A stretch of 64,000 bases of DNA, taken from positions 2,034,001 through 2,098,000 of the forward strand of contig NZ_CP029287.2 of NCBI RefSeq assembly GCF_003201675.2. The letters run 5' to 3'. Position numbers and translations under genes: made by a program. Under the pieces are notes generated by a model. It was not told where the DNA came from. It worked only from the letters and a program-made list of their open reading frames with translations, and did not search any database. The DNA comes from Metallosphaera hakonensis JCM 8857 = DSM 7519. Its GTDB lineage: Archaea; Thermoproteota; Thermoprotei_A; Sulfolobales; Sulfolobaceae. This document shows positions 17,324 to 20,043 of the stretch, in pieces (position 1 is the stretch's first letter; each line of letters begins with the position of its first letter).

Positions 17324-17458
17324 CTACACTTAAAGATGGTGGGTACCAAAAAAGATTTACGCTCTGAATCCTTTTTCTTCACATTTTAGAAGAATATTCA
17401 ATCATTAAATGAGTTAACCCAGAACTACGGGGAATAGGATATCATGGGAAGTTTTTGA

Positions 17459-17529
17459 GGGGCTACCGGGTACAGTTGTGTATTTTACCTGAAAATGACG
17501 TTTCTTACACATCTATACATGGTAGCCTC
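17459..17529 (+). repeat. 71-bp miniature hairpin element, copy 1
   Basis: The element starts GGGGCTACC and ends GGTAGCCTC (inverted ends), with an inner pairable stem TGTGTA/TACACA around CCTGAAAATGACG. It is flanked by a perfect 8-bp duplication, GTTTTTGA, at 17451-17458 and 17530-17537. Homologous copies lie at 38763-38831, 53801-53873 and 63437-63507. It lies between two tRNA genes and encodes nothing. Confidence 0.8.
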
Positions 17530-17722
17530 GTTTTTGATCTCGGAGCTCATAAACGAAAGATGAGAACTCCATCCCAAAGTCCAGAACGGGTAAGGTTAAG
17601 TGAGAGTTTATGAACGACTAAGTTGACGGGGATAAAGACGTCTAAACCATTGTAATTTTCTAAAAGATATCTCAAGCAGTTAATCGGAAATGAGACAAAA
17701 CAAACAAGAATGCAAAATGTGG

Positions 17723-17811
17723 CGGGCTCGCCGGGATTCGGACCCGGGACCTACGGGTACCTCCCATAGTGGTTAAGAGCCCGTCGCTCTACCTGGCTAA
17801 GCTACGAGCCC
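17723..17811 (-). tRNA. tRNA-Lys (CTT), intron-containing
   Basis: Cloverleaf on the minus strand: acceptor GGGCTCG/CGAGCCC, D arm GCTT…GAGC, anticodon stem ACGGG/CCCGT, T arm CCGGG-TCCGAAT-CCCGG. The anticodon loop reads C-T-CTT-A-A once an intron of about 15 nt (ACCACTATGGGAGGT) at position 37/38 is removed. CCA is not encoded. Confidence 0.88.
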
Positions 17812-18020
17812 ACGGTAAAGCTAAGGTAGAATGTTCACGTAAATATTTAAAGTAAACGAAAGAGAAGGCGAAGATATTTTACGGTCCAGAGAAGAGAATT
17901 TTAGTAATAAATAAAAAAGTATATCCTCTCTTACATTAATATAGAATCTGAAAACAGCTAATAGTAGAGAGAAAGAAAGTGCAAGCTACTGCCTTTACTC
18001 TAAGTCTTTTAATCCCTAGC

Positions 18021-18149
18021 TGCTTTATGGATCACTTGGATTTTTTTAGGTATTAAGCCCATTGCATCTCCTAAATTCAAAATTTAACGTTAATTTAAAA
18101 GCAAGATTAGATCTTACTTTGTAAATCTTGAAATAATCCGCAGATCGCA
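18021..18149 (+). repeat. MITE-like element, family 1, copy 1 (129 bp, degenerate)
   Basis: Begins TGCTTTATGGATCACTT and ends ATAATCCGCAGATCGCA, decayed inverted ends. It matches the 129-bp element at 18505-18633 along its length, including the identical block CGTTAATTTAAAAGCA. The flanks share only CCCTA, so any target duplication has decayed. It is non-coding. Confidence 0.65.
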
Positions 18150-18495
18150 CCCCTAATTTGTTTCTTAGAACTAGATTAGCATTACTTATTCCCTAAACTC
18201 GTAGGGCAAATACTAGCTGATGACAAGTGGGAGATAATATTGCAGAACCTTAACGAAGTAACGGCAAACCGTTCTAGCCTTCAGGATACTTTGAACCAAA
18301 CTAGGACTACTGCGGTCCTTAGCTGAGCTTTAGAGAAGGCATCTTGATGTCTTTCTGAAGCTTGCGGAGCGAAGTTCTTTAGACAAGATCTCTGTTGCAA
18401 CTATATTAAGTATAGTTGCCTACTTCACCCAAAAGAGAATTCGTCTACCTAATCCATATCGGAAAAGCGTCATATACGTAAAAGGTTTTAAATCG
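18150..18495. other. Gene-free spacer between two MITE copies
   Basis: No open frame of credible length and no tRNA here. It contains one notable structure, a perfect inverted repeat GCAACTATA-ttaag-TATAGTTGC at 18397-18419, of unknown role. The whole 16955-18687 gap is otherwise occupied by repeats and two tRNA genes. Confidence 0.4.
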
Positions 18496-18504
18496 TCCTT
18501 CTAC

Positions 18505-18633
18505 TGCTTTGTGGATCACTTCAATTTTCTCAGGTGTTAAGCTTATAGATTTTTCTTAAATTCTAAATCATTCGTTAATTTAAAAGCAGGTTTCACGTCG
18601 ACCTTGATAAAAATTGAAGTAATCCACAAAGCA
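18505..18633 (+). repeat. MITE-like element, family 1, copy 2 (129 bp)
   Basis: Perfect-looking miniature transposable element: ends TGCTTTGTGGATCACTTCAA and TTGAAGTAATCCACAAAGCA are inverted repeats over about 24 bp with one mismatch. A perfect 9-bp duplication, TCCTTCTAC, flanks it at 18496-18504 and 18634-18642. It is the same length as the copy at 18021-18149. It lies about 50 bp upstream of the AMP-ligase gene, so it may carry or displace promoter elements. Confidence 0.82.
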
Positions 18634-18687
18634 TCCTTCTACACAATATTAATATACTAAAAAGAGATTTAGAGGAGAGATATTGTC

Positions 18688-20043
18688 ATGAGCATAGCAA
18701 AGGTCCTTCAAGAATGGGCTAAGTCATCTCCAAACAGATACCTTATCACAGACACATTAACTTATGAACAGGCTAGAGATAAGATATCAAGATTGGCATC
18801 AAAGATACCAGAAGGAGGAACCGTTGTACATCTTATGACAAATTCTGTAGAATCTATACTAGTCTATATTGCAGGATTTTGGGCAGGTGCTAAGGTCGTC
18901 GCGTTAGACCCCTTAACTTCTGCCGAGGACCTCAGGTTTATTTTAGAGGATGCTTCACCTGATTTAGTTTTGGTAGACGAGGAAATTCAAAAAAGGGAAA
19001 AGGAGATAATAAAGGACTTTAAGGCAGAGATCCCTACTTTTAATGGCGATATTAAGGAGAGGCCATTCGAGTATAGTGACTCTACTCCAGGCCTGTCTTA
19101 TTATTATGCTGGAATAGCAGGAAGAACAATGGAGGTAGTTCACAGCGGGCTAAGAGTTGAGTTAAACAACAAGATTTTGTATGAGGCTCTTGGCCTTTCC
19201 ACTATCTCCACTGTACTTACAGTCCCAATAGCCCATGTTTTAGGAAATAGCGTACTAGGAGTTACCCTGGAGTCAGGGGGACATTTAGTTCCAATCAAAA
19301 AGTTTGACCCAGTTGAGGTCAGTCAACTCATAAATAAATATGAGATGAATTTCCTTGCAACGGTACCAATGGTCTACGATTCCCTAATAGAGAGGGGGAA
19401 CGGGTTAACCTCCTTAGAAACTTGTATAAGTACTGCTGCCCCTCTATTTCCTTCCACAGTCAGGGGATTTAAAGAGAAGTTCGAAAAGGACATAATTCAG
19501 CAGTACGGTTTCACTGAGGGTCTAGTTCTAACTCTTCAACCTAGAGACGTAACCGGAGTTATCACGATAGGCAAACCTTTGAATAAGGTCGAAATAAGAT
19601 TGGTTAAAGACGACGGAAGTGAGGCCAAGCCAGGCGAGGTCGGAGAATTGTGGGTGAAAGCTCCATGGCTAATGTTGGGATATAGGGACACCAGAGAAAA
19701 CTCAACTGTATGGAATAACGGTTGGCTGAAGACTGGTGACCTAGTCTCCTTGGATGAGAATGGGTTACTATACTTTAGAGGTGTAAAGAAAAGAATGCTC
19801 AAGTATAAGGGTTACCCCATATTTCCCAAGGACCTTGAAAATATTCTGATGCGTCATCCCGCAGTCAAAGAGGTTAAGGTTTTTGGCGAGGATGCAGGAA
19901 ACTTGGGCCAGCAACCGGTGGCCAACGTTGTCATAAAGGAAGGTTTTACGGTTACAGAGGACGAGCTACTAAACTATGTAAACTCTAAGGTAGCGTTTTA
20001 TAAGAGGTTAAAGAAAGTAAACATAGTGGGAAACCTTGAGTGA
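18688..20043 (+). CDS. Acyl-CoA synthetase/AMP-ligase family protein, atypical
   Basis: ANL-superfamily adenylate-forming enzyme by its QYGFTEG, KTGDL and YFRGVKKRMLKYKGYPIFPKDLENILMRHPAVKEV motifs (substrate unknown). Two things are odd. The Ser/Thr/Gly-rich ATP P-loop ('YTSGTTGxPK') is replaced by YYYAGIAGRTMEV. The protein also stops at 451 residues, just after FYKRLKKVNIV, without the usual PRTxSGKI catalytic-lysine segment. It may be inactive, regulatory or use a divergent mechanism. A thioredoxin gene overlaps its 3' end by 8 bp. Confidence 0.7.
   Translation: MSIAKVLQEWAKSSPNRYLITDTLTYEQARDKISRLASKIPEGGTVVHLMTNSVESILVYIAGFWAGAKVVALDPLTSAEDLRFILEDASPDLVLVDEEIQKREKEIIKDFKAEIPTFNGDIKERPFEYSDSTPGLSYYYAGIAGRTMEVVHSGLRVELNNKILYEALGLSTISTVLTVPIAHVLGNSVLGVTLESGGHLVPIKKFDPVEVSQLINKYEMNFLATVPMVYDSLIERGNGLTSLETCISTAAPLFPSTVRGFKEKFEKDIIQQYGFTEGLVLTLQPRDVTGVITIGKPLNKVEIRLVKDDGSEAKPGEVGELWVKAPWLMLGYRDTRENSTVWNNGWLKTGDLVSLDENGLLYFRGVKKRMLKYKGYPIFPKDLENILMRHPAVKEVKVFGEDAGNLGQQPVANVVIKEGFTVTEDELLNYVNSKVAFYKRLKKVNIVGNLE

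Follow-up and report, generated by a model that had tools for sequence, protein, structure and literature searches.

Between a tRNA-Lys gene and a gene for an AMP-ligase, the window (the whole 64,000-nt stretch of Metallosphaera hakonensis DNA that was analysed) carries two MITE copies of one family, the second of which ends directly before a predicted core promoter. The features are as follows.

17720-17811, minus strand: tRNA-Lys gene, the left neighbour
18021-18149, plus strand: older, decayed MITE, 97/129 identical to the intact one of the same family
18496-18504: left copy of the 9-bp target duplication TCCTTCTAC
18505-18633, plus strand: intact SM3-like, ISC1058-type MITE of 129 bp, recognised by terminal inverted repeats, own-genome matches and a 9-bp duplication
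18505-18528, plus strand: left terminal inverted repeat TGCTTTGTGGATCACTTCAATTTT, the first 19-23 nt of which match ISC1058-type IS ends at 95-96%
18610-18633, minus strand: right terminal inverted repeat, also matching ISC1058-type IS ends
18634-18642: right copy of the duplication TCCTTCTAC
18643-18656, plus strand: predicted BRE and TATA box (ACAATATTAATATA) of the AMP-ligase gene, the best site upstream of its ATG
18688-20043, plus strand: AMP-binding acyl-CoA ligase-like gene, 451 aa, with Pfam AMP-binding and AMP-binding_C domains

The arms of the intact MITE, 24 nt each, are complementary at 23 of 24 positions (96%), and its TCCTTCTAC flanks are identical (9/9), in agreement with the near-perfect inverted ends and 9-bp duplication described in a sequence-only reading of this DNA. 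The ORF list contains no ORF of at least 60 aa inside 18505-18633; the element is short and multi-copy, has inverted ends and a target duplication and lacks a transposase, as is characteristic of MITEs. The left copy had been called equal in length but decayed, and indeed aligns with the right one along 129 positions, with 97 identities and a duplication eroded to 3/9 in register or 6/9 with a shift. Since the flanking duplications differ, the copies arose by two separate insertions, not by duplication of one block, and their unequal decay bears out the claim that the locus was struck at least twice, at different times. Both are 129-bp copies, as stated, but ‘side by side' is loose, as 355 bp separate them. 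Two copies within 500 bp are unremarkable at the copy number of the family; 2 pairs less than 600 bp apart were observed in this genome, with 0.4-0.9 expected. The right copy is also ‘young' only in relative terms: against a consensus built from 30 own-genome copies its identity is ~95%, and the genome yielded no intact transposase.

The AMP-ligase assignment of the downstream gene is confirmed by the Pfam domains of its ORF. The young copy had, however, been placed where the promoter of this gene is expected, and here the result is different: the predicted BRE/TATA ACAATATTAATATA begins immediately after the right-hand duplication, at its first following base, and lies wholly outside the MITE, which thus abuts the predicted promoter and does not occupy it. 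On the criterion set in the sequence-only reading, such a position would speak against its point. When the empty site was rebuilt, no site within 200 nt upstream of the ATG scored higher than ACAATATTAATATA at -45 (0.82; the next, 0.76, was at -69). The best site is at the same position (-44/-45) in four of five congeners without the MITE (L124, L125, L126 and L128; not L127), and no match to the MITE was found upstream of the AMP-ligase gene in the stretches compared from these five (L124-L128). DNA similarity to another genome (G004) extends upstream as far as 40 bp before the ATG and thus does not quite reach the duplication. A weaker promoter candidate, AAAGGTTTTAAATC, lies beyond the far side of the intact MITE; no clear promoter was seen adjoining the older left MITE.

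A stretch of unique sequence in the spacer between the MITEs (18285-18425, plus strand) has a strong predicted RNA structure (z -3.5). It gave one 24-nt match among 31 other genomes and no Rfam family, and may be a small RNA or a remnant. An RNA gene or riboswitch over the MITEs themselves was considered and rejected, no Rfam family reaching the gathering score; their hairpin energies (z -6.8/-8.7) result from the inverted repeats.

About 20 kb (~2031.6-2052 kb, from a GHMP-kinase-like gene to the tRNA block) are inverted relative to congeners, with breakpoints at 17812-18642, the MITE-bearing spacer, and at genome positions 2030530-2031683. The MITE was discarded as the cause of the inversion, as there is no MITE at the other breakpoint and the duplication of the intact copy is perfect. 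In another congener (G005; L160, 15394-19299) three genes beside the AMP-ligase were flipped independently, which makes the promoter side of this gene a repeated rearrangement point.

Copies of the element and its parent insertion sequence

Searching the genome with the window MITE gave 53 alignments, read as ~41 places, so that its reading as a MITE is not a matter of chance. We fetched 30 of the 41 places, the remainder being mostly fragments; in nine of the 30 the 9-bp flanks are identical (in one case when shifted by 1 bp), and all nine are among the 13 copies most similar to the window MITE. Of 98 genomes searched, 14 contain the element or its relatives, the own genome among them, and all 14 belong to the 31 Sulfolobaceae genomes. 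With ~41 places here and 13 other Sulfolobaceae genomes, the absence of the family elsewhere, which the sequence-only reading had named as counter-evidence, is not borne out. Plasmid and phage records gave no match to the MITE. The interior of the MITE is ~75-84% alike across genera in all carrier genomes, though unrelated to the IS described below. Horizontal transfer as an explanation was not built upon, as the forks in a tree of 48 copies were mostly weak.

Relatives contain pairs of inverted repeats ~1,055 bp apart, which are IS elements with MITE-like ends and a 9-bp duplication (1,058 bp in G019; 1,057 bp in G029, by inferred name S. islandicus Y.N.15.51). These parent-type IS encode a DDE transposase of 299-302 aa, which is of the IS5 type (NCBIfam transpos_IS5_2, 159.5 bits against a cut-off of 140) and also matches Pfam PF01609. 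Comparison with IS terminal repeats, which had been proposed earlier, shows that the ISC1058-type ends match those of the MITE at 95-96% over 19-23 nt, and both have 9-bp target duplications. The common ends and 9-bp staggered cut suggest that the window MITE is non-autonomous and would be moved in trans by an ISC1058-type DDE transposase. The interior of the MITE has no similarity to the IS (489 of 500 shuffles score as good or better); only the ends are common, and an origin of the interior by internal deletion of the IS is not supported.

Matches to the transposase occur in 18 of the 31 family genomes; none was found in G008, G014, G017, G021 and G024, which have several MITE matches each. 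A search of plasmid and phage records returned one close match, in the S. islandicus plasmid pYN01. In the window's own genome, a scan for inverted ends (at most 2 mismatches) found no pair at IS distance, and the three transposase copies present are all broken.

Genome 484627-485474: transposase with a frame break, which could be a sequencing error
Genome 2461117-2464428: broken IS, split by ~2.5 kb
Genome 287801-288682: decayed transposase copy

Two ISC1058-type IS of this genome (L245, 1360-2400; L246, 1271-4854) have perfect 9-bp duplications and a broken transposase, and L246 holds ~2.5 kb of other DNA. As only broken transposase copies were found, the family is probably immobile in this genome at present.

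Similar elements are known from Sulfolobus. PMC3718332 describes SM3A MITEs as dependent on ISC1058 for mobility, and PMC10969869 gives a copy number of 44 for SM3. SM3/SM3A resemble our element in being multi-copy Sulfolobaceae MITEs without an ORF and with ISC1058-type ends; SM3A is 164 bp long (PMC3718332) versus 129 bp here, a comparison by description and not by sequence. The parent IS agrees with ISC1058 (IS5 group) in length (~1,058 bp), DDE transposase (~300 aa) and 9-bp target duplication; the name here rests on length and on PMC3718332, not on comparison with the named reference. In the genome of the window, the ISC1058-type copies are all broken.

Insertions relative to gene starts

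A rule of position was first noticed in the window's own genome, where several copies end ~45 bp before an ORF begins, and was then tested with copies fetched from relatives together with the own copies. We used 95 of 102 loci, 7 being left out as same-site copies; L066, at a contig end, was excluded from the test. Distances were measured to mechanical ORF starts and compared with random intergenic positions of the same loci. As many as 94 of the 95 deduplicated insertions are intergenic, and one is inside an ORF. Start-side distances of 40-60 bp were found in 25 of 100 cases versus 4.5 expected: 7/28 versus 1.0 in the own genome (binomial 5e-5) and 18/72 versus 3.6 in relatives (binomial 1e-8). 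The relatives' counts replicate an idea formed on the own-genome copies. Distances below 40 bp were depleted (5 versus 9.3 expected), those of 60-100 bp numbered 11 versus 8.4, and on the stop side 7 of 81 were at 40-60 bp versus 3.4.

Register relative to predicted promoters

We removed the insertions from 59 MITE loci with target duplications of at least 7/9 and read the 118 sides of these empty sites outwards. Promoters in this analysis are predicted: the BRE/TATA score is a crude consensus, with weights fixed beforehand for the window locus only. BRE-/TATA-like DNA runs from the first base after the duplication, the mean score at this offset 0 being 0.539 versus 0.424 (sd 0.012) elsewhere, 9.5 sd above background. 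We read a secondary peak near -27 as a near-palindromic TATA box seen from the opposite side. A score of at least 0.7 at offset 0 was reached at 39 of the 59 sites versus 10.6 expected from intergenic positions of the same loci, where the largest of 10,000 draws was 23. Such promoter-like sites recur in every well-sampled genome (own, 11/16; G002, 5/6; G030, 5/8; G027, 4/6; G029, 6/9; G019, 4/8). Matrices trained on one set cross-predict the other above the null 95th percentile (relatives to own, 9/16; own to relatives, 18/43). A hard a-priori matrix was abandoned as badly scaled, since it ranked clear sites low, and later tests used the fixed score.

Full-length IS behave in the same way. From 25 loci fetched, ends were found in 19 (the others being L239 and five G028 loci with a transposase ~50% identical), 16 of which have target duplications of at least 7. 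At 14 of these 16 a BRE/TATA-like site lies at offset 0±1, versus 2.5 expected and a largest draw of 9, and the two own IS copies whose ends are intact each have an offset-0 site (0.74 and 0.71). As the parent IS obeys the same register, the rule belongs to the transposase and not to the MITE. The S. islandicus IS copies L220-L222 and L224, near-identical to one another, share the pattern, which points to insertion and not to long retention.

As a control we used one unrelated family in the same genome, with 40 matches listed.

17459-17529: 71-bp MITE, with 8-bp duplication GTTTTTGA at 17451-17458 and 17530-17537

Of 30 fetched copies, 19 were kept (duplication at least 7/8, unique flanks), and a promoter-like site is at offset 0 in 2 of the 19 versus 1.9 expected. 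Promoters are plausibly accessible DNA, and any mobile element of these archaea might enter them when open, the ISC1058-type family being nothing special; given the absence of a signal in the control MITE, we find this quite improbable.

These results also bear on whether the pattern could arise after insertion. If elements inserted at random, with purifying selection clearing genes and core promoters and host benefit keeping copies upstream of promoters, the depletion below 40 bp would be as expected. Removal alone, however, cannot yield a five-fold excess at 40-60 bp with near-background numbers at 60-100 bp, nor a single-base register; near-identical, recent IS copies carry the same register, which the 71-bp control MITE lacks. 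This makes shaping by selection very improbable. The picture given by the sequence-only reading, an ordinary MITE that happens to lie near a gene, was right about the element, its inverted repeats and its duplication; as regards position, it is refuted at the family level and is extremely improbable, since the position is a family rule and not a single event. The adjacency of MITE and promoter in the window is not accidental. In several Sulfolobaceae genomes, MITE and IS alike very probably insert at a fixed register beside a predicted BRE/TATA.

Sequence motif or promoter

A fixed register could be explained in a simpler way: the transposase itself might prefer an AT-rich motif (AAAA..TTTATA-like) at a fixed distance, so that promoters are struck for containing it. 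The motif is indeed at a fixed register, and for IS it is stronger than the proximity to gene starts (14/16 sites versus 4/18 sides, the latter counting those promoter-like sides downstream of which an ORF starts at the expected distance). For the full-length IS, guidance by working promoters is, thus, less clear. The weaker side of the MITE sites also scores slightly above background (z 4.4), which is what a weak symmetric sequence preference would give.

Against this, an ORF start follows 28-60 nt after 17 of 42 promoter-like MITE sides with an insertion (40%), versus 239 of 3538 equal-scoring intergenic sites without one (6.8%; Fisher 1e-9, approximate since background sites overlap). The signal is one-sided (over the 59 MITE sites, one side in 36, both in 3, neither in 20) and the scores of the two sides are negatively correlated, although a symmetric dimer of the transposase should read both sides. 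Furthermore, only 1 of 95 insertions is in an ORF, though the equal-scoring background sites are split almost evenly (3434 coding and 3538 intergenic); selection may contribute to this. We therefore regard the AT-rich motif as a possible but rather unlikely explanation. The excess of ORF starts and the one-sided signal argue for real promoters over a mere AT-rich motif, and we lean towards a transposase guided by promoter-bound proteins; the 20 of 59 MITE sites without such a score on either side count against promoter targeting.

Discussion

Taken as a whole, the data are best explained by a MITE moved by an ISC1058-type transposase that inserts at a fixed register beside predicted promoters, perhaps directed there by proteins, and we hold this with good confidence. 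MITE and IS would target the 9 bp immediately upstream of a predicted core promoter, so that the element abuts the promoter without breaking it. Promoter-bound factors (TBP/TFB or the pre-initiation complex), and not the DNA sequence alone, may direct the transposase. At the window locus, the AMP-ligase gene would keep its core promoter, the DNA upstream of -54 being replaced by the MITE.

The yeast elements Ty3 and Ty1 integrate next to Pol III genes under the guidance of TFIIIB/Pol III. The likeness may lie in a fixed place beside a TBP-bound promoter that is itself spared, the promoters here being predicted; Ty3/Ty1 are, however, LTR retrotransposons, whereas here a DDE transposon and a MITE act in archaea. 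In its most specific form, in which ISC1058-type transposases recognise TBP/TFB on BRE/TATA and insert IS or MITE immediately upstream as a counterpart of Ty3, the proposal has, in our judgement, slightly better than even chances.

Correia elements, bacterial MITEs with outward promoters, are likewise enriched just upstream of genes, according to PMC10969869; unlike in those MITEs, the predicted host core promoter is kept here, outside the element. Promoter-register targeting is unmentioned for SM3/SM3A in the accessible portions of PMC3718332 and PMC10969869, and we found no report of it in the open-access papers searched. Older primary papers beyond that scope (Redder 2001, Filee 2007, Blount and Grogan 2005, Guo 2011, Florek 2014) may describe it. 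The elements themselves are of a known kind; a single-base register at core promoters of archaea would be new as a targeting behaviour.

If the transposase reads TBP/TFB, the family would offer a simple archaeal model of the way in which mobile DNA locates promoters, and, if the rule is true, its insertions would naturally mark promoter positions throughout the genomes of these archaea. The rule would also account for elements reaching high copy number in gene-dense genomes with little damage, upstream control regions being replaced: they would spread without breaking promoters while repeatedly rewriting upstream regulatory DNA.
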